Shown here: positions 11,105 through 24,980 of the stretch, in pieces | Layout of the letters: every line of letters begins with the position of its first letter | How positions within the stretch are numbered: the stretch's first letter is position 1 | Assembly: GCF_944384735.1 (NCBI RefSeq) | Contig: NZ_CALWUN010000019.1 | Span: forward strand, 1-39,347 | Direction: 5' to 3' | Length of the DNA stretch: 39,347 nt | Source: an uncultured Agathobaculum sp. | GTDB taxonomy: Bacteria > Bacillota > Clostridia > Oscillospirales > Butyricicoccaceae | Program-made: the position numbers and the translations under genes | Notes under the pieces: generated by a model | What the model was told of the DNA's origin: nothing | What the model saw: only the letters and a program-made list of their open reading frames with translations | Databases searched by the model: none

Positions 11105-12775
11105 ATGTTATCCGATATTGAAATCGCGCAGGGCTGCCAGATGCGCCCGATCGTTGACGTTGCCGCGGCCGCCGGGCTGGACGCGGACGACCTCGAACTT
11201 TACGGCAAATACAAGGCCAAGCTGTCCGCCGATGTGTGGAAAAAGACCGAGGGCAAGGAAAACGGCAAGCTGGTGCTGGTCACCGCCATCAACCCCACGC
11301 CCGCGGGCGAGGGCAAAACGACCACGACCGTCGGCCTCGGGCAGGCGATGGCAAAGCTGGGCAAAAAGGCGATGATCGCGCTGCGCGAGCCGTCGCTCGG
11401 CCCGGTGTTCGGCATCAAGGGCGGCGCCGCCGGCGGCGGCTATGCGCAGGTCGTGCCGATGGAGGACATCAACCTGCACTTCACCGGCGACATGCACGCG
11501 ATCACCGCGGCGAACAACCTGCTGTGCGCCATGCTGGACAACCACCTGCAGCAAGGCAACACGCTGGGCATCGACCCGCGCCGCATCACGTTCACCCGCG
11601 TGATGGACATGAACGACCGCGCCCTGCGCAACATCACGATCGGTTTGGGCGGCAAGGTCAACGGCGTGCCGCGCGAGGATCACTTTATGATCACGGTCGC
11701 GTCGGAGATCATGGCCATCTTGTGCCTTGCGTCCGACCTTGGCGACCTGAAAAAGCGCTTTGGCGACATTCTGGTCGCGTACAACTACGCGGGCGAGCCG
11801 GTGTACGCGCGCGACCTCAAGGCCGAGGGCGCGATGGCCGCGCTCATGCGCGACGCCATCAAGCCCAACCTTGTGCAGACGCTTGAGGGTACGCCCTGCC
11901 TGATGCACGGCGGCCCGTTCGCCAACATCGCACACGGCTGCAACAGCGTACAGGCGACCAAGCTGGCGCTGCGTCTGGCTGATATCGCGATCACCGAGGC
12001 GGGCTTCGGCGCCGACCTCGGCGCGGAGAAGTTCATGGACATCAAGTGCCGCAAGGCAGGCCTGTCCCCCGACTGCATCGTCATCGTCGCGACCGTGCGC
12101 GCGCTCAAGTACAACGGCGGCGTGCCCAAGGCCGAGCTGAACGAGCCCAACCTGACGGCGCTCGAGCGCGGCATCTGCAACCTCGACGCGCATCTGGATA
12201 ACATGCAGAAGTTCGGCGTGCCGGCGGTCGTCGCCATCAACGCCTTCCCGACCGACACCGCCGAGGAGATGGACTTTATCCGCCGGCACTGTGCCGAGCG
12301 CGGCGTACGCGTGGCGCTCTCCGAGGTGTTCGCCAAAGGCGGCGAGGGCGGCAAGGCGCTGGCCGAAGAGGTGCTTGCCGTGCTGGACGAGGGCAAGGCC
12401 GACTTCCACATGCTCTACGAGGACGCGCTGCCGCTCGAGGACAAGATCCGCAAGATCGCCAAGGAAATCTACGGCGCGCTCGGCGTGACCATTGCGTCCG
12501 CCGCCCACAAGGAACTGCAAAACATCACTGCACTGGGCTTCGGCCACCTGCCGGTGTGCATCGCCAAAACGCAGTATTCGCTGTCCGACGACCCGGCGCT
12601 GCTCGGCCGTCCGACCGAGTTCGTTGTCAACGTGCGCACCGCGCGTCTGGCTGCGGGCGCGGGCTTTGTCGTCGTCGAGACCGGCGCGATCATGACCATG
12701 CCCGGCCTGCCCAAGGTGCCCGCCGCAGAGAAGATCGACGTCAATGCCGACGGCAAAATCACCGGCCTGTTCTAA
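11105..12775 (+). CDS. fhs: Formate--tetrahydrofolate ligase
   Basis: The enzyme makes 10-formyl-THF from formate, THF and ATP, feeding purine synthesis and the methyl branch of one-carbon metabolism. The 556-residue product is of standard length. The P-loop TPAGEGKTT is at 65-73. Other conserved stretches are [43 protein letters not shown] and the C-terminal [22 protein letters not shown]. The gene has its own promoter, a strong ribosome site, and a hairpin after the stop. It is a lone gene, so a complete Wood-Ljungdahl pathway cannot be inferred. Confidence 0.98.
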
Positions 12776-12793: not shown

Positions 12794-12819
12794 GAAAGCC
12801 GCCCGAAAGGGCGGCTTTC
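12794..12819 (+). terminator. Terminator-like hairpin after fhs (left copy of a duplicated hairpin)
   Basis: Perfect 11-bp stem GAAAGCCGCCC / GGGCGGCTTTC with a GAAA tetraloop, 18 bp after the fhs stop. The T-run is short (TTTC). The central 24 bases recur exactly at 12981-13004, on the other side of the hairpin element at 12819-12980. Confidence 0.65.
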
Positions 12820-12980
12820 AGTCTGTCGATAAAGTCCTCGCGCCGCAGCGCGCATTGTTCAGCCGCTCTGTGAGCGGCATCAAAAAAGCGGGCTTTGCCC
12901 GATTTTTTGATACATTTGATTCGATCGGAAGCGTGGTTCCGATCGAGAGGCTGTCGAAAACTATGTTTTTCGACAGCCTC
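12819..12980 (+). repeat. Multi-hairpin intergenic repeat, copy A
   Basis: This is one of three near-identical elements (others 17208-17369 minus, 24795-24955 plus). In order it holds: CGCGC/GCGCG (12839-12852); GCCGCT/AGCGGC (12862-12878); a long ATCAAAAAAGCGGGC/GCCCG-A-TTTTTTGAT hairpin (12879-12911); TCGATCGGAA/TTCCGATCGA (12921-12946); and GAGGCTGTCGAAAA/TTTTCGACAGCCTC (12947-12980). CTGTCGA near the left end and TCGACAG near the right form a short terminal inverted repeat. There is no credible gene: the open frame through it is a by-product of repeat sequence. It lies downstream of fhs in the same sense. Confidence 0.9.
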
Positions 12981-13004
12981 AAAGCCGCCCGAAAGGGCGG
13001 CTTT
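12981..13004. repeat. Right copy of the duplicated hairpin flanking repeat copy A
   Basis: AAAGCCGCCC / GGGCGGCTTT with a GAAA loop, identical over 24 bases to 12795-12818. It ends 6 bp before the stop of the converging DUF4179 gene (13011) and could act as its terminator. Its exact duplication across the element suggests an insertion-linked duplication. Confidence 0.8.
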
Positions 13005-13010
13005 GCTGCG

Positions 13011-14018
13011 TTATCCGGCAAGCGGGATGGTGATCCCCTCATCCCCTGCCGTGTTACTGATAATCAGCGCCTGCACATCATCTGCACCGATATGCCCCAG
13101 ACCGCGGTTGAATTCTTCAAACTGGATTTCAAACGCCTCCGTACCGCCCCGGCTCCTCTGCCGCAGCACCTCCCCGTTTTTCAGCTGCAGCTGCACATCG
13201 AGTGCATAGCTGCCGTTCCGGCCATACTGGAGCAATTGACCGTCCAGGCTGACGCCCAGCGGCGCAAGGTACAGGTTGTCCAGCCGGACGACCGCGCCGT
13301 CCGGCAGCGTGACCTGCTGGTCGATCTTCAGAACCTCGTCCACCGGCTCCCAGTCCGTCGGGAACGTGAACGTCCAGTTGCCATAGAACAGCTGCATGCG
13401 GTCGAGGTCGGTGTCCACATAGGAAATACGCTCAAAAATGATCGTATAGGTCTCCGGCCACGCTTCCAGATACATCTGGTAAACAAACTCGACCTTGTTG
13501 TCATCCTGATCGGCATCGGGCAGCACATACGGCCCGCTCAGGCCGCCGCAGATGCCCGTCTCGTTGGCTTCGATCATCGCCGCAGTGTCCATCACCAGAT
13601 CCATCTGGGTGCGCGGTATGGAATCAGCCTCCTCCGTCACCTGCTCCGCACGCAGCGGCCTGCCGTCGTCCCGCGACACCGTCCCCTTGATGTAGACGGT
13701 GCGGGTGCTGCCGTACATCTCATCGAAGGTGATGGTATAGCCGTCATACGACTGGCTCAGACCCAGCGGCGTGCTGCCATGGTCCTGCTCCCAGTCGCCC
13801 ATGGTCTGTCGCGCCCAGTCGCGGTATACCGCAGCGGCGACGCAGCCTGTGATCAGCAAAATCACCGCAGCGGCAATCAGGATCATCGTCCGTTTGGTTT
13901 TCATACGGCTTCGCCCCTTTCCTCCGGTGACCGCCTGCAATATGCGGGCTTTGGACGCCTCCGGCAGCGCCGCGCCCGCCATCCGGCGGTCGATTGCCTG
14001 TTTCAGCTTTTCATCCAT
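13011..14018 (-). CDS. DUF4179-type membrane protein, probable anti-sigma factor
   Basis: The product has about 335 residues. The cytoplasmic N-terminus (KLKQAIDRRMAGAALPEASKARIL) resembles anti-sigma regions. One membrane span at about 45-65 (MILIAAAVILLITGCVAAAV) follows, then a long extracytoplasmic DUF4179-like part with YDGYTITFDEMYGSTRTVYIKG near residues 90-112. It overlaps the upstream sigma-factor gene by 8 bp, typical of sigma/anti-sigma pairs. The ATG at 14018 is preferred over 14024 because AGGGTGGG then sits about 7 bases upstream. The anti-sigma role is inferred from context and topology; the sensed signal is unknown. Confidence 0.78.
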   Translation of the reverse strand: MDEKLKQAIDRRMAGAALPEASKARILQAVTGGKGRSRMKTKRTMILIAAAVILLITGCVAAAVYRDWARQTMGDWEQDHGSTPLGLSQSYDGYTITFDEMYGSTRTVYIKGTVSRDDGRPLRAEQVTEEADSIPRTQMDLVMDTAAMIEANETGICGGLSGPYVLPDADQDDNKVEFVYQMYLEAWPETYTIIFERISYVDTDLDRMQLFYGNWTFTFPTDWEPVDEVLKIDQQVTLPDGAVVRLDNLYLAPLGVSLDGQLLQYGRNGSYALDVQLQLKNGEVLRQRSRGGTEAFEIQFEEFNRGLGHIGADDVQALIISNTAGDEGITIPLAG

Positions 14019-14511
14019 CGTCATCCCACCCTTTCAGCGTTTCTTTCAGCTGCGCCCGCGCGCGGCGCAGCCGCGTCGAGACCGTGTTTTCCTTTTCGTG
14101 CAGCAGCGCTGCGATCTCCGGTATGGTCAGCTGCTGCCAGTAGTAGAGCAGCACCGGCTCGCGGTACTTGGGCGCCAGCGCCAGCACCTGCCGCAAAATC
14201 TCGTCGTCCTGTGGTTCAGCGTCCGGCGACGCAGGAATCTGCTCGAGCAGCGCTTCACTGTCCAGCCGTTTGCGGTACCAGTACAGCCGCCGGTAGTCGC
14301 GACAGACGTTGACCGCGATCGTCGTCAGCCACGTCTTTTCACTTGCGCGCCGCGCGTAGCCGTCCAGCCCGCGCCACGCCTTGAGCATGGTGTCCTGCAC
14401 GGCGTCCTCCGCAAGGTACAGGTCACCCAGCAACAACAGGCACAGGCGGTACAGCCGGTCGCCGTGTTCTTCCATCATGCGCGTCAGCGTTTGCTGCCGG
14501 TCGTTTTCCAT
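14011..14511 (-). CDS. ECF-type RNA polymerase sigma factor
   Basis: A 166-residue sigma-70 of the extracytoplasmic-function type. Region 2 spans about residues 15-75 (HGDRLYRLCLLLLGDLYLAEDAVQDTMLKAW, with the -10-binding TWLTTIAVNVCRDYRR). Region 4 is at about 105-160 (LAPKYREPVLLYYWQQLTIPEIAALLHEKENTVSTRLRRARAQL). The DUF4179 gene overlaps its end. Upstream on the minus strand GAAC (about 14560) and CGTC (14538-14541) recall an ECF autoregulatory promoter, but the spacing is two bases longer than the usual N16, so this is weak. The SigV/SigX-like subgroup is not resolvable. Confidence 0.93.
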   Translation of the reverse strand: MENDRQQTLTRMMEEHGDRLYRLCLLLLGDLYLAEDAVQDTMLKAWRGLDGYARRASEKTWLTTIAVNVCRDYRRLYWYRKRLDSEALLEQIPASPDAEPQDDEILRQVLALAPKYREPVLLYYWQQLTIPEIAALLHEKENTVSTRLRRARAQLKETLKGWDDDG

Positions 14512-14644
14512 ATCCCCTGCCTCCTTTCACCCCATTAGACGGATACGGCATGCCTTTCCGTTCATCACGCCGCAAAAACTTTTCTCCGACAGCATAACAC
14601 GACGCGCCGCTGCGGGGCAAGTGCGCACAGCTTCCTTCCCACGG

Positions 14645-14674
14645 TGGACAAAGATGCGCATTTAGGTGTATAAT
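14645..14674 (+). promoter_or_regulatory. SigA-type promoter for the Lrp/aminotransferase operon
   Basis: TGGACA (14645-14650, 5/6 match) and TATAAT (14669-14674, perfect) with an 18-bp spacer. The predicted start near 14681 leaves a leader of about 48 bases with AGGGAGG before the ATG. Confidence 0.75.
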
Positions 14675-14728
14675 AAAATATACCGCGGGTTTGTCCGCCG
14701 GAAATATCCTGCACACAGGGAGGTTGTT

Positions 14729-15223
14729 ATGATGGAAAATCCCGAAAAGCTGCTCGACCTGCTCAGCCAGGACGCACGCCTGACCCCCGCCCAGCTTGCC
14801 GCCATGACCGGCGCGAGCGAGGCCGAGGTGGTCGACGCGATCCGCGCTTTTGAAAAGAACGCCACAATCCTGGGCTATAAAACCGTGATCGACTGGGACA
14901 AGACCGCCAAGGAGAGCGTCACCGCACTCATCGAGGTCAAGATCACCCCGCAGAAGGGCATGGGCTTTGACGAGATCGCCCGCCAGATCTATTCGCACCA
15001 TCAGGTCGAAAGCGTCTACCTGATGAGCGGCGGCTTTGACCTGACGGTCATCATCAAGGGGCGCTCGATGCGCGAGGTTGCGCGCTTTGTCTCCGAGCAG
15101 CTTGCACCGATGGAAAACGTGCTGTCGACCGGCACGCACTTCATCCTGAAGAAATACAAGGATTACGGCGTCGAGTTTGACCCCTCGGAAACCGATCAAA
15201 GAGAGGTCATGATGGCATGGTAG
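14729..15223 (+). CDS. Lrp/AsnC family transcriptional regulator
   Basis: A 164-residue feast/famine-type regulator. The N-terminal winged helix-turn-helix (LLDLLSQDARLTPAQLAAMTGASEAEVVDAI) covers about residues 5-38, followed by the linker TILGYKTVIDWDK and the RAM/ligand-binding domain from about 65 (VTALIEVKITPQKGMGFDEIA, VYLMSGGFDLTVIIKG). ATG at 14729 is 5 bases after AGGGAGG (14717-14723); ATG at 14732 is an equal alternative. Its last codons overlap the aminotransferase start, so it probably controls or senses the substrate of that enzyme. The effector amino acid is unknown. Confidence 0.92.
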   Translation: MMENPEKLLDLLSQDARLTPAQLAAMTGASEAEVVDAIRAFEKNATILGYKTVIDWDKTAKESVTALIEVKITPQKGMGFDEIARQIYSHHQVESVYLMSGGFDLTVIIKGRSMREVARFVSEQLAPMENVLSTGTHFILKKYKDYGVEFDPSETDQREVMMAW

Positions 15224-16386
15224 ATTACGAACAGCTGCTGTCCGACCGGGTGCAGATGGTCAAGCCCTCGGGCATCCGCCGCTTTTTTGATGTAGCCGCC
15301 GCCATGCCGGACGCGATCTCGCTCGGCGTGGGCGAGCCGGACTTTGAAACCCCGTGGCAGATCCGCCGCGCGGGCATCCAGTCGCTCGAAAAGGGCAAGA
15401 CGTTTTACACCTCCAACTGGGGCCTTGCCGACCTGCGCAAGCAGATCGCTGCGCTGACACGGCGCAAGTACCAGTTATGCTACGACGCGGACAAGGAAAT
15501 CCTCGTCACGGTCGGCGGCTCGGAGGCCATTGACAATACCATCCGCGCGCTGGTCAATCCGGGCGACGAGGTGCTCATCCCCGAGCCGAGCTTTGTCTGC
15601 TACACCCCGCTGACCCAGATGGCGGGCGGCGTGCCCGTCCCGCTGCCAACACAGGCGGCCGACCAGTTCAAGCTGACCGCGTCCGCGCTGCGCGCGGCCA
15701 TCACACCGCGCACCAAACTGCTGATCCTGCCCTACCCCAACAACCCGACGGGCGCGATCATGACGCGCGACGAACTGGAAGCGCTTGCCGCCGTGCTGCG
15801 CGACACCAATATCGCTGTCATTTCGGATGAAATCTATTGCAGCCTGACCTACGGCAAGGAACCGCACGTCTGCTTTGCCGAGCTGCCCGGCATGCAGGAG
15901 CGCACGATCGTCGTCGACGGTTTTTCCAAGTCCTACGCGATGACCGGCTGGCGTCTGGGCTGGGCGATGGGGCCGAAGGAATTGATGAAGCAGATCTGCA
16001 AGATCCATCAATTTGGCATCATGTCTGCGCCGACGACCGCGCAGTTCGCGGGCATCGAGGCCATCCGCACGGGCGAGGACGACATCGAGCGCATGCGCAG
16101 CCAATACGATATCCGCCGCCGCTTCCTGCTCGGCGAGCTGCGCTCCATGGGCCTTACATGCTTCGAGCCGCAGGGCGCGTTCTACATGTTCCCGTCGATC
16201 GCATCGACCGGCCTGTCCTCCGAGGAGTTCTGCGAACGCCTGCTGCACGAGCAGCGCGTCGCGGTCGTGCCGGGCAACGCCTTCGGCGACAGCGGCGAGG
16301 GGCATGTTCGCATCTCCTATTCCTACTCGATGAACCACCTGCGCGAGGCCTGCTTCCGCATACGCAAGTTCCTGCAAAACCTGTAA
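15217..16386 (+). CDS. Class I PLP-dependent aminotransferase
   Basis: A fold-type I aminotransferase of 389 residues. Visible PLP site residues: NNPTG at 175-179, D204-E-x-Y207, and the Schiff-base lysine K238 in GFSKSYAMTGWRLGWA. It starts inside the last codons of the Lrp gene (7-bp overlap, ATGGTAG), a pair often seen in Clostridia. Aspartate, alanine or aromatic amino acids are all possible substrates. The his operon in this window lacks hisC, but this protein looks like an AspC/PatA-type enzyme rather than HisC; that judgement is by eye. Confidence 0.92.
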   Translation: MVDYEQLLSDRVQMVKPSGIRRFFDVAAAMPDAISLGVGEPDFETPWQIRRAGIQSLEKGKTFYTSNWGLADLRKQIAALTRRKYQLCYDADKEILVTVGGSEAIDNTIRALVNPGDEVLIPEPSFVCYTPLTQMAGGVPVPLPTQAADQFKLTASALRAAITPRTKLLILPYPNNPTGAIMTRDELEALAAVLRDTNIAVISDEIYCSLTYGKEPHVCFAELPGMQERTIVVDGFSKSYAMTGWRLGWAMGPKELMKQICKIHQFGIMSAPTTAQFAGIEAIRTGEDDIERMRSQYDIRRRFLLGELRSMGLTCFEPQGAFYMFPSIASTGLSSEEFCERLLHEQRVAVVPGNAFGDSGEGHVRISYSYSMNHLREACFRIRKFLQNL

Positions 16387-16390
16387 CGAC

Positions 16391-16430
16391 ATAAAAGCAG
16401 CCTGTTCCAAACGGAACAGGCTGCTTTTAT
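16391..16430. terminator. Bidirectional terminator between the aminotransferase and pyrE
   Basis: Perfect 18-bp stem ATAAAAGCAGCCTGTTCC / GGAACAGGCTGCTTTTAT with AAAC loop, placed between converging genes. TTTTAT follows on the plus strand; A/T rims on both sides allow use in either direction. Confidence 0.93.
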
Positions 16431-16441
16431 GCTGCTTTTAA

Positions 16442-17104
16442 TCAGAATACGCAGTACTGCGCCATATAAGCGTCCATCAGCGGCAGCAGGTCGGCATACT
16501 CGGCCTTGTCAGCCAGATACTCGCGGATATCCTGCACGGTGACGAGCGCGTGTACCTTGATGCCGAACTCCTCGCCAACCTCCATGACCGCGGTCTTGCC
16601 CGGGGTCGTGCCGACCTCGCAGCGGTTGACCGAGATGAACATATCGGTCACCTTGACGTCCGCGCAGCCCTGCAGCACCGGCATGGTCTCGCGGATGGCG
16701 GTGCCCGCGGTGATGACGTCCTCGATGATGATGACGCGGTCGCCGTCCTTGGGCTTGTAGCCGACGATGCTGCCACCCTCACCGTGATCCTTTACTTCCT
16801 TGCGGTTGAAGAAAAACGGCTTGTCGATACCGTAGTTGCGCGCGAGCGCACCGGACACCGAGGTCGCCAGCGGAATGCCCTTGTAGGCCGGGCCGAACAT
16901 CGCGTCGAAGTTGTCTCCGATCGTCTCCTTGACGAGCGCCGCGTAGAATTCGCCCAGTCGGGAGTTCTGCAGGCCGGTCTTATAGTTGCCGGTGTTGACA
17001 AAATACGGGGTCTTGCGGCCAGACTTGGTCGTAAAGTCGCCGAAGCGCAGCACGTCCGCGCCCATCATAAACTCGATAAATTCCTTTTTCGCCTCAGAAA
17101 GCAT
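16442..17104 (-). CDS. pyrE: Orotate phosphoribosyltransferase
   Basis: PyrE joins orotate and PRPP to OMP in pyrimidine synthesis. The 220-residue product has the PRPP-binding segment VIIIEDVITAGTAIRE, the catalytic-loop region KEVKDHGEGGSIVG, and the substrate-site start FTTKSGRKTPYFVNTGNYKTG. The ATG at 17104 follows AAAGGTGGAACGAGCT; an in-frame ATG at 17128 has no ribosome site. It has its own promoter (17137-17165) and no visible PyrR attenuator. No other pyr gene is in the window. Confidence 0.96.
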   Translation of the reverse strand: MLSEAKKEFIEFMMGADVLRFGDFTTKSGRKTPYFVNTGNYKTGLQNSRLGEFYAALVKETIGDNFDAMFGPAYKGIPLATSVSGALARNYGIDKPFFFNRKEVKDHGEGGSIVGYKPKDGDRVIIIEDVITAGTAIRETMPVLQGCADVKVTDMFISVNRCEVGTTPGKTAVMEVGEEFGIKVHALVTVQDIREYLADKAEYADLLPLMDAYMAQYCVF

Positions 17105-17136
17105 AGCTCGTTCCACCTTTTTACTCATTTGGTACC

Positions 17137-17165
17137 AGTATAGCAGATTTGTCCGGCAGAAACAA
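17137..17165 (-). promoter_or_regulatory. SigA-type promoter for pyrE
   Basis: On the minus strand TTGTTT (17160-17165) and TATACT (17137-17142), spacer 17 bp. Predicted start near 17130, about 26 bases before the pyrE ATG, leaving no room for a classical leader attenuator. Confidence 0.7.
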
Positions 17166-17180
17166 GCCGTCGGAAGATAG

Positions 17181-17207
17181 AAAGCCCGGAGCATCCGCTC
17201 CGGGATT
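17181..17207. repeat. Hairpin flanking repeat copy B (left)
   Basis: Stem CCCGGAGC / GCTCCGGG (17185-17204) with ATCC loop. AGCCCGGAGCATCC here matches AGCCCGAAGCATCC on the other side of copy B (17371-17384) with one difference, and the rest is partly conserved. It parallels the duplicated hairpins around copies A and C. Confidence 0.65.
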
Positions 17208-17369
17208 GAGGCTGTCGAAAACTATGTTTTTCGACAGCCTCTCGATTGGAACCACGCTTCCAATCGAATCAGTTGTATCAAAAAAGCGGGCAAAGCTCGC
17301 TTTTTTGATGCCGCTCACAGAGCGGCTGAACTATGCGCGCTGCGGCGCGGGAACTTTATCCACAAACTG
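17208..17369 (-). repeat. Multi-hairpin intergenic repeat, copy B
   Basis: Minus-strand copy of the element at 12819 and 24795, in the 298-bp gap between ilvD and pyrE and in sense with ilvD. All five hairpins are kept. The fourth has arms TCGATTGGAA / TTCCAATCGA (17242-17267 in plus orientation): both partners of one base pair differ from copies A and C (C-G changed to T-A), so the stem is preserved. The third hairpin also stays paired. The apex of the GAGGCTGTCG hairpin reads as in copy C and inverted relative to copy A. No gene is supported in it. Confidence 0.9.
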
Positions 17370-17370
17370 A

Positions 17371-17396
17371 AGCCCGAAGCATCCATTTCTGGCTTT
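17371..17396 (-). terminator. Terminator-like hairpin after ilvD (right flank of repeat copy B)
   Basis: Imperfect stem AGCCCGAA / TTCTGGCT with one mismatch and loop GCATCCAT, placed 7 bp after the ilvD stop on the minus strand. It is the diverged partner of the hairpin at 17181-17207. Confidence 0.5.
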
Positions 17397-17402
17397 ATGT
17401 TT

Positions 17403-19067
17403 TTAGCGGAGCACCGCACCCTGATCGGCCGAGGTGACCAGCCGCGAATAACGGTACAGCCAGCCCGACTTGACGTTGGGCTCGCGCGGCACGAACTTCG
17501 CGCGGCGGGCTTCCAGCTCCCCGTCGGAAACCTTGACGTTGACCTTGCTGTTCGGGATGTCGATGGCGATGATATCACCCTCCTGCACGAGCGCGATCTC
17601 GCCGCCTGCCGCTGCTTCGGGCGACACATGGCCGATCGACGCGCCACGGGACGCGCCGGAGAAACGGCCGTCCGTGATGAGCGCGCAATCCTTGTCCAGC
17701 TGCATACCGGCCAGCGCCGAGGTCGGGTTGAGCATCTCGCGCATGCCGGGGCCACCCTTCGGGCCCTCGTAGCGGATGACCACCACATCCCCCTTGTGAA
17801 TCTCGCCGGCATAAATGGCCTTGATCGCATCATCCTCGGAATCGAACACGCGCGCCGGGCCTTCGTGCACCATCATCTCGGGCGCGACAGCCGAACGCTT
17901 GACGACGCAGCCGTTCTTCGCGATGTTGCCCCACAGCACGGCGATGCCGCCGGTCTCGGAGTACGGGTTGTCGATCGGGCGGACGACCTCGGGATTCTTG
18001 TTGACGACGCTCGCGAGGTTCTCGCCGACCGTCTTGCCGGTCACAGTGATCAGTGACAGGTCGAGGAAGTCGCGTCTGGTCAGCTCCTTCATGATGGCTG
18101 GCACGCCGCCCGCGGCGTACAGCTGCTCGATGTGGTGCGGGCCCGCGGGCGCGAGGTGGCAGATGTTCGGCACCTTGGCCGACAGTTCATTGAGCGTTTC
18201 CAACTGCAGCGGCACGCCCGCCTCATTGGCCAGCGCCAGCAGGTGCAGCACCGAATTGGTCGAGCAGCCGATGGCCATTTCGCAGCACAACGCGTTGCGG
18301 AACGCCGCCGGAGTCAGGATGTCGCGCGGCTTGATATCCTTTTCGACCAGCTCCATGATCTTCATGCCTGCGTGCTTGGCCAGATGGATGCGCGCAGCCG
18401 AAATCGCCGGGGTAGTGCCGTTGCCGGGCAGCGCCATGCCGATCGCCTCGGACAGGCAGTTCATCGAGTTCGCCGTGTACATGCCCGCGCACGAACCGCA
18501 GCCCGGGCAGGAATTGCACTCGGCCTCGTAGAAGGTCGCGTCATCCATGATGCCTGCCTTATACGCGCCGACCGCCTCAAAGGTTTTGGACAGCGAAACC
18601 TCCTCACCGCCGAAATGGCCGGCCAGCATCGGGCCGCCGGACACGAGGATGGCCGGGATATTCAGGCGCGCCGCCGCCATCAGCATGCCGGGCACGATCT
18701 TGTCGCAGTTCGGGATGAGCACGAGCGCGTCAAACTGGTGCGCCTGCGCCAACGTCTCAACGCTGTCCGCAATCAGCTCGCGGCTGGGCAGCGAGTACTT
18801 CATGCCGATATGCCCCATCGCGATGCCGTCGCACACACCGATGGCCGGCACGAGCACCGGCGTGCCGCCCGCCGCGCGCACGCCTGCCTTGACGGCGTCC
18901 GCAATCTTATCCAGATTGATGTGGCCGGGGATGATCTCGCTGTATGCGGAGACGACGCCGATGATCGGGCGCTGCATCTCCTCGTCGGTCAGGCCGCAGG
19001 CGCGCAGCAGCGAGCGGTTGGGCATGCGCTCGGCGCCTGCGATGATGTTGTCGCTTCTTCTGGACAC
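17403..19067 (-). CDS. ilvD: Dihydroxy-acid dehydratase
   Basis: IlvD is an Fe-S dehydratase giving the 2-keto acids that precede valine and isoleucine. The 554-residue product has typical length and motifs: [14 protein letters not shown] near 41-54, [10 protein letters not shown] at 77-86, [10 protein letters not shown] at 119-128 and [17 protein letters not shown] at 187-203; C121 and C193 are likely cluster ligands by family position. The start is a GTG at 19067 ([11 protein letters not shown]), with AAGGAGG about 9 bases upstream. The frame is open upstream to 19172, but that part runs through a hairpin cluster and lacks family similarity. It follows ilvC after a 262-bp structured gap. 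Confidence 0.96.
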
Positions 19068-19093
19068 GGGGAAATTCCTCCTTTTGACAGAAC

Positions 19094-19316
19094 AGGCGAG
19101 CGGAAACCCGCCCGCCTGTACACATTCTTCTTTTCGCGCCTTCGGCGCGCATGCAGTCGAAAAATCCAGCACGCTGGATTTTTCATCAAAAGCGCGAGCT
19201 CTGCCCGTGCTTTTGATACCTCGACTCAGCCGCCTTGGGCGGCGTCATTCGGGTATCGAAAACCGGTTTCTTCGGAACCGGTTTTCGTATATAGGGGGCT
19301 TTTGAAGCCCCCTATA
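19094..19316. repeat. Cluster of six hairpins between ilvC and ilvD
   Basis: Consecutive stem-loops in a 262-bp gap: AGGCGAGCGG/CCGCCCGCCT (19094-19118, one mismatch); CGCGCC/GGCGCG (19135-19149); GAAAAATCCAGC/GCTGGATTTTTC (19159-19184); ATCAAAAGC/GCTTTTGAT (19185-19217); CGAAAACCGGTT/AACCGGTTTTCG with a C-TTCG-G apex (19257-19287); TATAGGGGGCTT/AAGCCCCCTATA (19290-19316). A further GCCGCC/GGCGGC lies near 19229. The array sits inside the minus-strand message between ilvC and ilvD. The hairpin nearest ilvC could stabilise the upstream message or partially terminate; the role of the rest is unknown. Confidence 0.75.
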
Positions 19317-19329
19317 CGTTTCAAACGAC

Positions 19330-20337
<1,008 letters not shown>

Positions 20338-20383
20338 CTAAGTATATAGAAATGAATTTAGGAAAACAAATTAAAAGGCGCGG

Positions 20384-20860
20384 TCACTTCTCGATCGCGG
20401 TGACGCCCGAGCGGCTCATCTCGACGATCTCAAAGTTGGAGATAACGTCAAGGAACGCATCGATGCGGCTGGGTACCTCGGCCAGCTCAACGATCATCGT
20501 CTCGTCGGTCGACTCGACGATATGCGCCTCATACAGGCCGCACAGCTGACGGATGGCGTCGCGCTCGCTGGCGTTTTCCGCCTTGACCTTGACGAACACC
20601 AGCTCGCTGCAGCAGGAGTCGTCCTCCTGCAGGTGGTCGACGCGCTGCACCTCCTCGAGCTTGAGCAGCTGCTTGATGATCTGCTCAAGGATCGGCTCGT
20701 CGCCCTGCACGATAATCGACATACGCGAAATCTTGGGGTCGGTGGTCGCGGATACGGTCAGCGAGTCGATATTATAGCCGCGGCGGCCGAACAGGCTGGA
20801 CACGCGCGCCAATACGCCCGCGTTATTCTGCACGGTGACAGAAAGGATATATTTTTCCAT
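20384..20860 (-). CDS. ilvN: Acetolactate synthase small (regulatory) subunit
   Basis: The ACT-domain subunit activates IlvB and confers valine feedback inhibition. The 158-residue product starts with the ACT domain (KYILSVTVQNNAGVLARVSSLFGRRGYNIDSLTV, residues 3-36, with the N-x-x-G-V-L ligand loop) and has a second ACT-like C-terminal half (ELVFVKVKA...IVELAEVPSRIDAFL). It is 15 bp downstream of ilvB. The symbol ilvH would be equally valid. Confidence 0.96.
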   Translation of the reverse strand: MEKYILSVTVQNNAGVLARVSSLFGRRGYNIDSLTVSATTDPKISRMSIIVQGDEPILEQIIKQLLKLEEVQRVDHLQEDDSCCSELVFVKVKAENASERDAIRQLCGLYEAHIVESTDETMIVELAEVPSRIDAFLDVISNFEIVEMSRSGVTAIEK

Positions 20861-20875
20861 GGTCAGTCCCCTTTC

Positions 20876-22543
20876 TCAGTCCGCCACAATGTCGTCGACC
20901 GTGCCGCCCGCCGGGATCATGGGCAGCACGCGCTCGTCCTTGTCGATGCGGCAGTCGATCAGCACCGGGCCGGTGCGCTGTTCGAGCGCGCCGGACAGCG
21001 CCGCGCGCAGCTCCGGGATGTTGGTCACGCGGTAGCCGCGGCCGCCGAATGCCTCGGCCAGCTTGATATAGTCTGTTTTGCGGTACAGGTCGGTCTGGGA
21101 ATAGCGCCGGCCGTAGAACATGGTCTGCCACTGGCGGACGTTGCCCAGCACGTTGTTGTTCATGATGATCGTGATGACCGGCAGGCCGTAGGTCACGGCG
21201 GTGCACAGCTCGTTGAGGTTCATGTGGAACGAACCGTCGCCTGTGATGTGGACGACCGTCTTTTCCGGGAACGCAATCTGCGCGCCCATGGCCGCGCCGT
21301 ATCCGAAGCCCATCGTGCCAAGTCCGCCCGAGGTCAGGAAGTGGCGCACCTTGCGGCAACGGTTATACTGTGCCGACCACAGCTGGTGCTGGCCGACGTC
21401 GGTCGCAACGATTGCGTCGTCGCCGATCATGTCGTACAGCGTGCGCAGCAGCTGGTGCGGATGGATGACGCTGTCGTCGTCCTCGGGCGCATAGTCGAGC
21501 GTGCGCTGCCACTCGGCGATCTGCGCGCGCCATTCGGTGTGCTTGGCCTCGGCGACATGCGGCAGCAGCGCCTTGAGGAAGTTCTCCGCGTCGCTGACAA
21601 CCGAGTAATCCACGCCGATGTTCTTGTTGATCTCGGCCGCGTCAATGTCGATATGGACGATCTTGGCCTTGGGGGCAAAGCGGCGCGGGTTGGTGGCCAC
21701 GCGGTCGGAAAAGCGCGCGCCGATGCAGATCAGCAGGTCGCTGCGCTCGACCGCCCATGCAGCCGAAACCGTGCCGTGCATGCCGACCAGCCCAAGGCTG
21801 AGCGGCTCGGTGTCCGGGATGCAGCCAATGGCCATCATGGTGTGCGCCGACGGGATATCCGCCTTCTGCATCAGCTTTTGCAGCGCCGCGCCCGCATTTG
21901 CGGTCTCTACGCCGCCACCGTAATAGATCATCGGGCGCTCGGACTGCGCGATCATGGCCGCGACCGTCTCCAGCTGCTCGGTAGTGACCTCATAGGATTC
22001 ATCGACCACGGCCTTGCCGGCCGGGACGTACTCGCACTCGGCGCTTGTGACGTCCTTCGGGATGTCGATCAGCACCGGGCCGGGACGGCCGGACGAGGCG
22101 ATACGGAATGCGTCGCGCACGGTGGCAGCCAGTTCCTCAACATGGCGCACGACGAAGTTGTGCTTGGTGATCGGCATGGTGATGCCGGCGATGTAGACCT
22201 CCTGGAAGGAGTCGCGGCCGATCAGGCTGGTACCGACGTTGCCGGTGATGGCGACCATCGGGATCGAGTCCATGTAAGCCGTTGCGATGCCCGTGACCAG
22301 ATTGGTCGCGCCCGGGCCGGACGTTGCCATGCAAACGCCGACCTTGCCGGTCGAGCGGGCGTAGCCGTCGGCGGCATGCGCCGCGCCCTGTTCGTGGGCA
22401 GTTAAAATATGTCGAATGCGGTCGCTGTTCTTGTAAAGCGCGTCATAGATATTCAGCACCGCGCCGCCGGGGTAACCGAAAATCGTATCGACCCCCTGCT
22501 CTACCAGCGCTTCCACCAAAATATCCGAACCGTTCTTTATCAT
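20876..22543 (-). CDS. ilvB: Acetolactate synthase large (catalytic) subunit
   Basis: A ThDP-dependent enzyme that condenses pyruvate units, the first committed step of branched-chain amino acid synthesis. The 555-residue product shows GYPGGAVLNIYDAL with the catalytic glutamate in TAHEQGAAHAADGYAR near 48-63, GRPGPVLIDIPKDVT, the central FAD-binding-type domain, and the ThDP motif GDGSFHMNLNELCTA followed by NNNVLGNVRQWQ. ATG at 22543 has AAAGGAGG upstream. It is the first gene of the ilvBNCD operon and is preceded by a T-box leader with a consensus promoter. Confidence 0.97.
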   Translation of the reverse strand: MIKNGSDILVEALVEQGVDTIFGYPGGAVLNIYDALYKNSDRIRHILTAHEQGAAHAADGYARSTGKVGVCMATSGPGATNLVTGIATAYMDSIPMVAITGNVGTSLIGRDSFQEVYIAGITMPITKHNFVVRHVEELAATVRDAFRIASSGRPGPVLIDIPKDVTSAECEYVPAGKAVVDESYEVTTEQLETVAAMIAQSERPMIYYGGGVETANAGAALQKLMQKADIPSAHTMMAIGCIPDTEPLSLGLVGMHGTVSAAWAVERSDLLICIGARFSDRVATNPRRFAPKAKIVHIDIDAAEINKNIGVDYSVVSDAENFLKALLPHVAEAKHTEWRAQIAEWQRTLDYAPEDDDSVIHPHQLLRTLYDMIGDDAIVATDVGQHQLWSAQYNRCRKVRHFLTSGGLGTMGFGYGAAMGAQIAFPEKTVVHITGDGSFHMNLNELCTAVTYGLPVITIIMNNNVLGNVRQWQTMFYGRRYSQTDLYRKTDYIKLAEAFGGRGYRVTNIPELRAALSGALEQRTGPVLIDCRIDKDERVLPMIPAGGTVDDIVAD

Positions 22544-22572
22544 GCGAATCCGCCTCCTTTCCCAAAATAAAC

Positions 22573-22612
22573 AAAAATAAAAAAGCCTTCGCCTCAACAA
22601 AGAGACAAAGAC
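22573..22612 (-). terminator. Intrinsic terminator of the ilvB T-box leader
   Basis: On the minus strand an 11-bp helix GTCTTTGTCTC / GAGGCGAAGGC (three G-U pairs) with loop TTTGTT is followed by TTTTTTATTTTT. It lies between the T-box sequence and ilvB, so read-through would depend on the antiterminator formed with uncharged tRNA. Confidence 0.85.
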
Positions 22613-22861
22613 CAATCCTCTGCGGTACCACTCTTCTTGCCGCGCACGCACGCGCATGCCGCGACCACTCACCTGACCTTTTAACGCAGATCACGCGGAA
22701 CGCCTTACACGGAGCCCTGTTCCATCCCTTTTCAGACGTCCGGCTCACGGAGGACTTTCGCACTTCCCTTCTTCCACCGCCTTGCACCACCCGGCGGCTC
22801 TCTTTTTGGATTCCAGACGCTACTTTTCCGGTCATTGCCGATATGCCGTATTCAAAATGTA
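22573..22861 (-). promoter_or_regulatory. T-box riboswitch leader controlling ilvBNCD
   Basis: The minus-strand leader shows the T-box core AAGAGTGGTACCGC (22622-22635) upstream of a terminator. TGGT in the core would pair with an ACCA tRNA end, fitting Leu, Val or Ile tRNAs. Stem I landmarks are present: GGAAAAGTAG near its start (about 22820-22829), AGAGAGCCGCC with the distal loop GGGTGGTGCAAGGCGG, and the descending side GCGAAAGTCCTCCGTGAGC. A base helix GCGTCTGG/CCGGACGT can be drawn. Codons near the specifier position include GTC (Val) and CTC (Leu); I cannot decide without folding. The leader accounts for most of the 452-bp gap to the divergent yetF-like gene. Confidence 0.88.
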
Positions 22862-22867
22862 ATTCAT

Positions 22868-22896
22868 ATTATAAAGCGGCTTTCGGAGATTGTCAA
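22868..22896 (-). promoter_or_regulatory. Consensus SigA promoter of the ilv operon
   Basis: TTGACA (22891-22896) and TATAAT (22868-22873), both perfect, with a 17-bp spacer on the minus strand. The predicted start near 22861 gives a leader of about 318 bases. A perfect promoter is expected where control is by attenuation. Confidence 0.93.
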
Positions 22897-22995
22897 CAAC
22901 TTTTTCGCATTTTACTTTGTTAAATTCCTGTCCGGTTATAATCTGGCCAAATTGTGACATACTACCGGTAAATCCACTTGAAATGAGGCGGAATT

Positions 22996-23670
22996 ATGGC
23001 TGTTCCCCTGCTGCGCACGCTGGTGCTGTACTGCGCGGTCATCGCCGCGGTGCGCCTGATGGGCAAACGTCAGATCGGCGAGCTCGACCCGTCCGAGCTG
23101 GTCATCACCATACTGGTATCCGACCTTGCGGCCGTGCCGATGCAGGACCTCGGCATCCCGATGTTCGCCGGGCTGGTGCCGATCGCCACGTTGATCGTAC
23201 TCGAGATCCTGATGAGCTGGCTGTCGCTCAAAAGCCGCGCATTCCGGCGGCTGCTCAACGGCCAGCCCGCCATCGTCATCCGCGGCGGGCAGTTGGACAT
23301 CGGCAAGCTGCGCGAAATGCGCCTGACGACCGACGAGATCGTCGAAACGCTGCGCAAGCAGAATGTATCCTCGGTGTCGGACGTCAAATACGGCGTCATC
23401 GAGCCGGACGGCACACTGTCTGTCATCCTCAAGCAGCCACAGCAGCCGGTGACGGCCGAGATGCTGGGCATCACACCCAAAGATGTCGGCCTTCCGCTCG
23501 TCGTCGTGTCGGACGGACGGCTGGTGCGCCGCTCGCTGCGGCTGCTGCACCTCGACCCCAAGGACATTGAAAACCGGCTGAAAAATCAGAGCCTTGCTGT
23601 GTCCGATGTGTTCCTGATGACGCTCGACGACTGCGGCAACAGCTTTGTGCAGCGGAAGGGGCGCGCCTGA
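22996..23670 (+). CDS. DUF421 (YetF/YcaP family) membrane protein
   Basis: A 224-residue protein. Three N-terminal hydrophobic segments (about 3-20, 34-50, 57-78) precede a cytoplasmic DUF421 domain containing GKRQIGELDPSELVITIL (24-41), RLLNGQPAIVIRGGQLDIGKL (84-104) and VSSVSDVKYGVIEPDGTLSV (123-142). In Bacillus the YetF/YrbG family includes spore-associated membrane proteins; the molecular role is unknown. ATG at 22996 follows GAGGCGG. A TATAAT at 22937-22942 may serve it, but no good -35 is seen. Its stop overlaps the next gene as TGATG. Confidence 0.88.
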   Translation: MAVPLLRTLVLYCAVIAAVRLMGKRQIGELDPSELVITILVSDLAAVPMQDLGIPMFAGLVPIATLIVLEILMSWLSLKSRAFRRLLNGQPAIVIRGGQLDIGKLREMRLTTDEIVETLRKQNVSSVSDVKYGVIEPDGTLSVILKQPQQPVTAEMLGITPKDVGLPLVVVSDGRLVRRSLRLLHLDPKDIENRLKNQSLAVSDVFLMTLDDCGNSFVQRKGRA

Positions 23671-24008
23671 TGCGGCGGGTCTGGATGGCGCTGGCGCTGC
23701 TCGCGCTGCTCCTGCTCGGCAGCTGGTGGAGCCTGCGCACGGTTGAGCGCACCACGGAAGCCATTGTCGCCGAAATCGAGGCGGGCGACTTGGATGCCGC
23801 GCACCAGCGCTGGGATGAGGCGCAGGTGCTGCTCGGTTCGCTGCTGCTGCACGACGAGCTGGACGCAGCCGACCGGCTGTTCGACCGCGTGCTGGCCGCG
23901 CGCGACGCGGGCAACGGCGAGGACTTCGCGCTCGACCGCACCGAGCTGCTGTCCCAGCTGCGCCACCTGCCCGACCTCGAACGGCCGAGCCTGATCAACC
24001 TGTTCTGA
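23670..24008 (+). CDS. DUF4363-like small membrane-anchored protein
   Basis: A 112-residue product with one N-terminal membrane span (MRRVWMALALLALLLLGSWW) and an extracytoplasmic helical part with alternating acidic and hydrophobic residues (IVAEIEAGDLDAAHQRWDEA, LHDELDAADRLFDRVLAA). DUF4363 proteins are commonly encoded right after a DUF421 gene, and here the start codon overlaps the DUF421 stop. The pair probably forms a membrane complex; that is inference. Confidence 0.75.
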   Translation: MRRVWMALALLALLLLGSWWSLRTVERTTEAIVAEIEAGDLDAAHQRWDEAQVLLGSLLLHDELDAADRLFDRVLAARDAGNGEDFALDRTELLSQLRHLPDLERPSLINLF

Positions 24009-24058
24009 TCGCCAAATCCAAGGCTGCAATTTTGGCAAATTTGATATAGCTTTTCCGG

Positions 24059-24097
24059 ACAAGATATGGTAGTATTGGTTTGTAAATAATATCTTGT
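24059..24097. promoter_or_regulatory. 9-bp inverted repeat upstream of the flavin reductase-rubredoxin gene
   Basis: ACAAGATAT (24059-24067) and ATATCTTGT (24089-24097) are perfect inverted arms separated by 21 bp, in an AT-rich gap otherwise without a gene. The right arm ends 27 bp before the start codon. The half-site spacing is two helical turns plus, which would suit a repressor binding two sites on one face. The promoter within it is not clear (TAGTAT at 24070-24075 is the best -10). Confidence 0.5.
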
Positions 24098-24124
24098 TTT
24101 ATTAGTATCCAGAAAGGAAGCTGC

Positions 24125-24760
24125 ATGATGAACAACGCTGCCTATAAAAAGCTCGATTACAGCCTTGCGCTGCTGTCCACCACGGCCGATGGCAAAAACT
24201 TCGGCTGCATCATCAACTCGCTGCATCAGGTGACCTCGTCGCGCCCGCCCAAGTTCACGCTGTCGCTGAATAATGACTCGGCAACCGGTGCCGCGCTCAA
24301 AAAGAGCGGCGTTGCCGCCGTCACGCTGCTCGCACAGGACGCAGACGAGAAGATCGTCAACGAATTCGGCTATAAATCCGGCCGCGCGATCGACAAGTTC
24401 GCCGCCTTCCCGTTCGAGACGGATGCCAACGGCTGTCCGTACCTCAAGGACGGCATGGTGTCCCGCCTGAGCCTGCGTGTGACCGAAACGGTCGCCATCG
24501 GCTCGTACACGCTGTTCATCTGTGAGCTGACCGACGCCGAGGTGCTGGCCGACGGTGACTGCCTGACCGTCAAGGCGCTTGAAAACCGCGGCAAGGACGC
24601 GCCCCCGGCCGCGCCGGTCTACCACGAGGTCGGCCCGGACGCAGGCTGGAAGTGCACGGTCTGCGGCTATGTCCGGCTGGACGAGACCATCCCGGACGAC
24701 TATATCTGCCCGATCTGCCGCGCCCCGCGCAGCAAATTCGTCAAACGCAGCGAAGCATAA
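24125..24760 (+). CDS. Flavin reductase-rubredoxin fusion (high-molecular-weight rubredoxin type)
   Basis: A 211-residue two-domain redox protein. The N-terminal FMN-binding flavin-reductase-like domain covers about 1-155 (DYSLALLSTTADGKNFGCIINS, then the VTSSRPPKFTLSLN region). The C-terminal rubredoxin is at about 174-208 with C177-x2-C180-GY and C195-PI-C198. In Moorella, protein Hrb of this design passes electrons from NADH to a flavodiiron protein that reduces NO or O2; a similar role in oxidative or nitrosative defence is inferred. The residue after the second Cys pair is Arg (CPICRAP), where Gly is usual. ATG at 24125 follows AAAGGA. No flavodiiron gene is nearby. Confidence 0.9.
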   Translation: MMNNAAYKKLDYSLALLSTTADGKNFGCIINSLHQVTSSRPPKFTLSLNNDSATGAALKKSGVAAVTLLAQDADEKIVNEFGYKSGRAIDKFAAFPFETDANGCPYLKDGMVSRLSLRVTETVAIGSYTLFICELTDAEVLADGDCLTVKALENRGKDAPPAAPVYHEVGPDAGWKCTVCGYVRLDETIPDDYICPICRAPRSKFVKRSEA

Positions 24761-24770
24761 ACCGACCGAA

Positions 24771-24794
24771 ACGGCCGCCCGGAGGGGCGGCCGT
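24771..24794. terminator. Terminator-like hairpin after the rubredoxin-fusion gene (left copy)
   Basis: Perfect stem ACGGCCGCCC / GGGCGGCCGT with GGAG loop, 10 bp after the stop. It lacks a T-run. A near copy at 24957-24980 lies on the other side of repeat copy C (two differences over 24 bases). Confidence 0.6.
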
Positions 24795-24955
24795 CAGTCT
24801 GTCGATAAAGTCCTCGCGCCGCAGCGCGCATTGTTCCACCGCTCTGTGAGCGGCATCAAAAAAGCGAGCTTTGCCCGATTTTTTGATACATTTGATTCGA
24901 TCGGAAGCGTGGTTCCGATCGAGAGGCTGTCGCAAACATAGTTTTCGACAGCCTC
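24795..24955 (+). repeat. Multi-hairpin intergenic repeat, copy C
   Basis: Same length (161-162 bp) and hairpin order as copy A, with only a handful of differences: CCACCGCT for CAGCCGCT, GCGAGC for GCGGGC in the third stem, and GTCGCAAACATAG for GTCGAAAACTATG at the apex of the last stem. The last change inverts the apex relative to copy A. It lies in sense downstream of the rubredoxin-fusion gene. The remaining bases of the 273-bp gap (24956-25033) hold the duplicated hairpin and a promoter. Confidence 0.9.
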
Positions 24956-24956
24956 T

Positions 24957-24980
24957 CGGCTGCCCGGAAGGGCGGCCGTC
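24957..24980. repeat. Right copy of the duplicated hairpin flanking repeat copy C
   Basis: CGGCTGCCC-GGAA-GGGCGGCCG, matching 24772-24795 except for two substitutions. One (C to T) turns a G-C pair into a G-T wobble, so the stem is still possible. Confidence 0.7.

Follow-up and report, generated by a model that had tools for sequence, protein, structure and literature searches.

As far as the available portions of two reports describe them, the staphylococcal elements IS1272, of the IS1182 family, and TnSha1 take hairpins as their targets, several of these being terminators confirmed by RNA-seq; the target has no sequence consensus, insertions occur in both orientations, and the stem-loop is removed wholly or partly, with no target duplication (PMC4923244, PMC5678879). 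The model published with them includes a further outcome, duplication of the entire stem-loop, which would follow if the ends were joined at the 5' feet of the hairpin (PMC5678879), and a review cited in the same portions of both papers credits some IS1182 members with palindromic targets. Here we describe a short element that occurs in three copies (A, B and C) in a 39,347-nucleotide stretch of DNA, referred to as the window, from an uncultured Agathobaculum sp. (contig NZ_CALWUN010000019.1, positions 1 to 39,347). We conclude, with a probability of roughly 0.8, that it is a non-autonomous miniature inverted-repeat transposable element (MITE) of ∼160–260 bp that is mobilised in trans by a DDE transposase of the IS1182 family and targets terminator hairpins. 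Like IS1272 and TnSha1, as the accessible text presents them, it uses stem-loops, terminators among them, and the transposase family of its putative partner is the same; unlike them, it duplicates the whole hairpin, lacks a transposase gene and has a conserved interior of several hairpins.

The three copies had been picked out earlier from the sequence of the window (the original prediction) as sharing the same five stem-loops in the same order, and they are present as described. That prediction left the choice between a structured RNA and a mobile element resembling either a repetitive extragenic palindrome (REP) or a MITE, with mobility supplied in trans. The MITE half is now strongly supported: the element has ∼36 copies and terminal inverted repeats, the left one close to that of IS1182 elements, it duplicates its target, congeners have an empty site, and the host assembly yielded no matching transposase. 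Strictly speaking, it is not a REP-like element. New beyond the prediction are the terminator hairpin as target, the duplication of the whole hairpin and the likely family of the transposase.

Copies, ends and duplicated target hairpins

A BLAST search of the host assembly (94 contigs, 2.06 Mb, 83% complete) with copy A and its flanks, pieces being merged by hand, finds the element at 40 or more places, a lower bound since 40 of 89 first-look candidates were scored. Four pairs of contig-edge halves have a common flanking hairpin, and the number of distinct copies therefore becomes ∼36 once these are joined; the further genomic copies that the original prediction had suggested looking for are thus present in number. 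In pairwise comparison the window copies are 91% (A and B), 96% (A and C) and, over 149 nt, 90% (B and C) identical. The common form is 160–168 bp long (the 165-bp form), and variants of 208, 217–218 and 259 bp differ from it by two inserts, in hairpins 1 and 3. The terminal inverted repeats (TIRs) are imperfect, the left reading CAGTCTGTCGATAAAG and the right, as its reverse complement, GAGGCTGTCGAAAA. There is no transposase gene within the element, which has both the shortness and the copy number of a MITE. In the 217/218- and 259-bp forms (L022, L027, L032 and L034) the hairpin 1 insert appears by eye to be a sequence of ∼52 nt resembling GCCGTAGCCCGCGAAACC...CCGCCGCTGTGCGGCGATGAAATGCGTGTC, a related version of which lies in the hairpin 4 loop of element L061 of congener G009 (by eye).

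Most host copies are flanked on both sides by one intrinsic-terminator hairpin, and this hairpin varies between loci. Twenty-nine host copies have both flanks and both ends present; the other 11 of the 40 places (L028–L031, L033 and L035–L040) are contig-edge halves or have no recognisable right end. When the flanks were compared with 812 mismatched left-right pairings, the match exceeded the 99th percentile in 24 of the 29 copies and the maximum in 17. Three copies below the threshold (L013, L019, which is window copy B, and L024) nevertheless have the same hairpin on both sides by eye. Among congener loci with a recognised right end, the hairpin is duplicated in 20 of 22 distinct elements (22 of 24 rows, two loci being counted on both strands).

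The tracts that accompany the hairpins are distributed asymmetrically. Once L014, L016, L024 and L026 are set aside, there remain 25 host copies whose duplication is clean and adjacent. Among these, the 9 nt preceding the stem contain at least five A in 18 left hairpins and in no right hairpin, and at least six T follow the stem of 14 right hairpins and of five left ones. Such a pattern, with the A-tract and T-tract on the outside, is expected if a single terminator, consisting of A-tract, hairpin and T-tract, is split and its hairpin alone duplicated. The direction of the duplication could be scored in 23 of the 29 copies, the remaining six having none or one too decayed; it is direct in 20 and inverted in two (L013 and L032), with one tie. 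In both inverted cases the loop of one hairpin copy is the reverse complement of the other, as if the hairpin had flipped.

An empty site is present at fhs, the one locus tested. In all five congeners searched, fhs is followed by a single hairpin with no element, which provides the kind of site that the original prediction had proposed seeking in relatives. In G019 (L215) a stretch of 121 nt, from the right-hand hairpin into the downstream DNA (GTTATCCGGCAAGCGGGATGG...), aligns almost throughout with the window, and what L215 lacks is the element together with one hairpin; at L218 a short part of the downstream sequence is common with the window. The terminator loop at fhs is GAAA in the window and TTTC at L215, again inverted as if flipped.

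Target duplications of typical MITEs are a few bases long, whereas those made here contain stems of 15–28 bp, bounded by G/C and set by structure. In other respects (shortness, absence of a transposase, TIRs, a target duplication, many copies, intergenic location and structure) the element resembles bacterial MITEs as a review presents them in the parts available to us, which do not describe duplication of a whole terminator (PMC10969869). The same parts cover the SPRITE, BOX and RUP sequences of the pneumococcus, which are likewise short structured intergenic repeats (PMC10969869); SPRITE is itself terminator-like, whereas the present element uses the terminator as a target that varies from one site to the next. 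The open-licence literature that was searched, in which the review by Siguier et al. is represented through the papers citing it, yielded no description of an IS1182-type MITE or of whole-terminator duplication.

The same observations bear on two other kinds of mobile sequence. A REP-type palindrome, or one mobilised by an HUH (Y1) transposase, would likewise be intergenic, palindromic and multi-copy, but we consider this reading very improbable, no search aimed at Y1/RAYT genes having been made. A REP element is a single short imperfect palindrome without target duplication; the element has instead five distinct hairpins, TIRs and a long duplication containing a 15–28-bp stem, its left end is similar to that of a DDE family, and to our knowledge Y1 transposition makes no target duplication. 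Group IIC introns target terminators, and the location of the element would suit an intron of this class lacking an open reading frame; the target duplication in 24 of 29 copies, the ends, which are TIRs, and the absence of any Rfam group II match make this scarcely credible, as retrohoming, so far as we know, yields no target duplication.

BLAST gave a match in 22 of 24 congeners, in at least one of which (G017) the best match is spurious, being a terminator. Among 15 genomes from outside the genus, two (G026 and G031) gave a match, and both best matches are spurious. These best matches (L068–L070) are ordinary terminators similar to hairpin 3 and were rejected. The congener relatives are longer, mostly 200–330 bp, with similar ends and partly different interiors. 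No match to the element was found in phage or plasmid records, and none that was exact to its left end in viral contigs. The element explains some breaks in the host assembly, seven contigs being cut within a copy and a further contig end, the start of C93, lying 27 bp short of one. Common flanking terminators suggest that the contig ends of C16 and C30, C42 and C66, C55 and C82, and C73 and C93 join.

Probable relationship to IS1182-family insertion sequences

The proposed link to a transposase family begins with the left end. The pattern AGNYTGTCGAWAAAG, scanned in 10 congeners, occurs at 37 places in five of them, compared with six for the reversed pattern. Thirty of the 37 places were read and are mostly left ends of related elements, with L115, L120 and L129 ambiguous. 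At L106 and L111, both in G021, a terminator is followed by CAGCCTGTCGAAAAAGTCC and then by a reading frame that starts MLERGKLDRGIVEMVDTESLVPQDHLLRKIDAAVDF; L125 resembles a decayed version of this longer type, and L133 in G023 is a third partial IS1182-type element with nearly the same left end. The 67-residue N-terminus of the G021/G023 reading frame matches the NCBIfam IS1182 transposase model NF033551 (E 3.8e-15); the score of 55.7 bits is below the cut-off of 270, as expected, because the query is a fragment. No Pfam family matched this N-terminus. Annotation at the match was present in eight of the best 15 of 469 plasmid records, and in every case names an IS1182 transposase. The left end of the MITE agrees with that of L133 at 18 of 19 positions and with CAGCCTGTCGAAAAAGTCC at 17 of 19, in a comparison made without a chance control.

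At L115 (congener G011, C1:3930203) a fragment that by eye resembles an IS200-type transposase comes directly after the left end of an element, suggesting a second insertion into this element.

Hairpin targets are common to the MITE and to autonomous IS1182 elements. The Thermocaproicibacter transposase genome scan gave 71 loci, of which the 36 long ones were examined together with two plasmid copies; in 32 of these 38 the left end could be recognised and 40 bp or more of flank was available (L155, L159, L168, L181, L182 and L184 were dropped, although in L184 a duplication is visible by eye). A hairpin of less than −8 kcal/mol lies directly to the left in 29 of the 32, compared with 10% of mononucleotide-shuffled flanks. 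Where enough right flank is available, the hairpin is duplicated above the 99th percentile of 702 cross pairings in 14 of 27 elements, or 13 of 26 if L153 and L154, which represent one insertion, are counted once. The ISBspe1-family copy on the Alkalihalophilus pseudofirmus plasmid pBpOF4-01 (L140) and the ISEfa7-family copy on an Enterococcus faecium plasmid (L141) both lie, as the window element does, between two copies of one terminator-like hairpin. Their left ends read CAGGCTGTTGAGAAAG and CAGACTGTAGACAAAG; unlike the window element, both are autonomous, with coding sequences of 1356 and 1521 bp.

Several observations weigh against a terminator-targeting MITE driven by an IS1182 transposase. 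The right TIR starts GAGG and not CAGN, and agrees with the IS left ends at 10–12 of 17 positions, again without a chance control. Neither the 67-residue N-terminus nor PF13751 finds an IS1182 transposase in the host assembly (no matches for either), in which, at its 83% completeness, no autonomous partner with the same ends was found. In the genus no full-length autonomous copy was recovered, L106 and L133 ending at a contig edge and L111 being decayed. Hairpin duplication is absent from host copies L014 and L026 and from congener elements L071 and L104, and the match of L016, which is among the 24, lies 29 nt past the right end, behind another hairpin. Thirteen of the 27 IS1182 loci fall below the duplication threshold, and the hairpins at the two ends are by eye unlike in L014, the T. 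melissae IS, L145, L146, L150, L171 and L185; recombination between copies would yield such unlike flanks. An old or trans-mobilised MITE does not require an autonomous partner in the same genome, and we infer the IS1182 link from the left end and the shared targets.

Two PF13751-type IS1182 elements of congeners, L080 and L085, were considered as partners and set aside, as their ends are different (..GTTGACAAAGTC..). On each side of L080 stands ACGTCC-six bases-GGACG, the loop being inverted between the two, which we take as part of its ends because L085 has part of the same repeat; it could instead be a hairpin duplication.

Probable maintenance of the interior hairpins

For the 221-nt region made up of copy A and its two flanking terminators the folding energy is −126.6 kcal/mol, compared with −76.0 ± 4.6 kcal/mol in 200 shuffles (z −11). 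The stem structure of the interior is probably maintained, because its covariation score was reached by none of 500 shuffles in either of two sets of sequences, slid structures scoring far lower. In the first set (A2), comprising 28 copies of the 165-bp kind, 9 of 51 pairs are changed on both sides, in 24 cells; 21 of its rows come from the host, and five congener rows are without the right end. In the second (A3), comprising 14 longer relatives from seven congeners, the count is 22 of 58 pairs and 63 cells. Covariation beyond the single pair noted in the original prediction, which it had proposed to look for, is thus found within the 165-bp form and across species. One end is missing or misaligned in several rows of the alignments, the shuffles take no account of relatedness, and a pair-type measure was reached by 19 (A2) and 55 (A3) of 500.

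Two pairs had been singled out in the original prediction. In stem 4 the joint change of both bases is real: among the aligned copies 22 of 28 have C-G and four U-A, with one U·G and one C·A. The pairing claimed to be preserved in stem 3 by G-C/G-T differences does not survive on the element's own strand, where G-C occurs in copy A only and an A·C mismatch, next to a variable pair, in 27 of 28 copies; the G·T exists on the opposite strand alone.

Maintenance could operate by selection on an RNA, by selection on a DNA hairpin, or by palindrome correction during replication, through which perfect inverted repeats may covary, and all three routes are compatible with the data. A structured RNA of 3' untranslated regions, such as a small RNA or an element of processing or stability, that spread by its usefulness and for which mobility was secondary, would account for the compensatory changes in both sets. 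It would also account for the retention of the loop AAGCGTGG in 12 of 14 A3 sequences although its stem varies, and for the excess of G·T over A·C on the sense strand of A3 (50 compared with 3). Loss of the T-tract from the left terminator would, moreover, place the element within the transcript. The structure of A3 was, however, chosen by RNA rules, and in A2 the strand test is neutral or adverse (21 G·T compared with 37 A·C, or 21 compared with 10 without one fixed A·C pair); palindrome correction could itself produce the covariation, the shuffle controls have the limits given above, and no Rfam family reaches its gathering threshold over the element, the matches being sub-threshold. Nor is there a clear bias in gene orientation. 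The crude reading-frame rule by which orientation was called, applied to 25 of the 29 host copies, places 10 between convergent genes, eight in the sense of both neighbours, five antisense to both and two otherwise. The originally predicted location, 3' of a gene and in the same sense as that gene, therefore holds for the three window copies (Table 1) and is not general in the host. Taken together, we regard the structured-RNA explanation as possible, though rather unlikely.

The orientation data sit more easily with a requirement for the internal stems as DNA, whether for binding of the transposase or a host factor or for single-strand or cruciform folding during transposition. The targets are themselves hairpins, and the IS1182 relatives L138 and L140 have hairpins beside their ends (by eye), both of which are in keeping with such a requirement. 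Against it, there is no direct evidence of protein binding inside the element, and a strand-specific U·G wobble, conserved in all 14 sequences of A3, better suits an RNA; a role as DNA is a serious possibility that we put forward tentatively.

Of 25 genomes of the genus, 15 contain a separate module of ∼43–50 nt, AAGGTGAATTG-variable stem-CAAGAGAAGG-second stem (GGCCTGGGCC); the host has 14 matches, none of them in the window, and the reversed pattern has none in any of the 25. The module is often housed by the loop of a different hairpin and may face either way (L220–L261). In 42 of 44 distinct contexts its stem is at least 4 bp long, with 12 different such stems, and a flanking helix is predicted around 31 of the 44. 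By appearance it is a small RNA-like module of a mobile or plug-in kind. At L231 (host C58:10163-10191) it lies inside a reading frame that appears by eye to be ParB-like, and the frame is kept open across it.

Table 1. Window copies of the element, the terminator hairpins on either side and the genes upstream
Feature	Position	Strand	Remarks
fhs, formate-tetrahydrofolate ligase, upstream of copy A	11105..12775	+	PF01268
Left fhs terminator hairpin, target duplication of copy A	12795..12818	+	24 bp, AAA-stem-TTT; identical to 12981-13004; single in congeners
Mobile element copy A, 162 bp, five hairpins	12819..12980	+	Left TIR CAGTCTGTCGATAAAG, right TIR ..TTTTTCGACAGCCTC
Right fhs terminator hairpin, copy A	12981..13004	+	Flank alignment (locus L001)
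Right ilvD terminator hairpin, copy B	17182..17207	-	Flank alignment (L019)
Mobile element copy B, 162 bp	17208..17369	-	
Left (element orientation) ilvD terminator hairpin, copy B, decayed	17370..17395	-	L019 score 14, below 99th percentile alone; judged by eye
ilvD, dihydroxy-acid dehydratase, upstream of copy B	17403..19172	-	PF00920
Flavin reductase with C-terminal rubredoxin-like domain, upstream of copy C	24125..24760	+	PF01613 + PF21349
Left terminator hairpin 3' of flavin reductase-rubredoxin gene, copy C	24772..24794	+	Flank alignment, L003 score 20
Mobile element copy C, 161 bp	24795..24955	+	
Right hairpin of the flavin reductase-rubredoxin gene's terminator, copy C	24957..24979	+	Flank alignment (L003)

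A reading frame on the minus strand (13011-14024) converges on copy A from the other side. Elsewhere in the window, a T-box leader (RF00230, 97.7 bits, gathering score 93) lies at 22598-22844 on the minus strand, upstream of a gene at 20876-22672 on the same strand that appears by eye to be acetolactate synthase-like, and overlaps the longest reading of that gene.

Proposed mechanism and biological meaning

In the mechanism that we propose, an IS1182-type transposase, supplied in trans, would recognise the terminal repeats of the MITE, roughly (C/G)AG(T/C/G)CTGTCGA(A/T)AAA, and the hairpin or cruciform DNA of an intrinsic-terminator stem-loop of any sequence. The ends of the element would be joined to the two feet of the hairpin, and gap repair would copy it, giving one whole hairpin on each side, with the original A-tract ending outside the left hairpin and the original T-tract outside the right. 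Because these outer tracts are retained, a complete terminator would be rebuilt downstream, presumably functional since its T-tract is intact, and insertion would be of low cost to the host. The upstream terminator would be weakened, so that the element would probably come to lie within the transcript. The internal hairpins, for their part, may be structurally constrained or may be corrected continually as palindromes.

A more speculative extension, which we hold to be doubtful, treats the element as a mobile structured RNA domain that severs the U-tract of the first terminator, rebuilds a terminator behind itself and so would always occupy the 3' end of a host transcript. The covarying hairpins would act there and would swap plug-in modules (AAGGTGAATTG-stem-CAAGAGAAGG-stem, resembling a three-way junction) between hairpin loops across the genus.

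In a compact genome, terminators offer a safe place to land. By reading the shape of a hairpin and not its sequence, and by duplicating the whole hairpin, an element would keep both the gene and its stop signal usable and could reach a high copy number. The MITE family and the autonomous IS1182 elements together provide many instances that fit the whole stem-loop duplication branch of the IS1272 model, as set out in the available portion of its description (PMC5678879), which gives no example of that branch, and the reading of hairpins by an IS1182 transposase becomes directly testable. The copies of the element also constitute natural terminator-insertion experiments.

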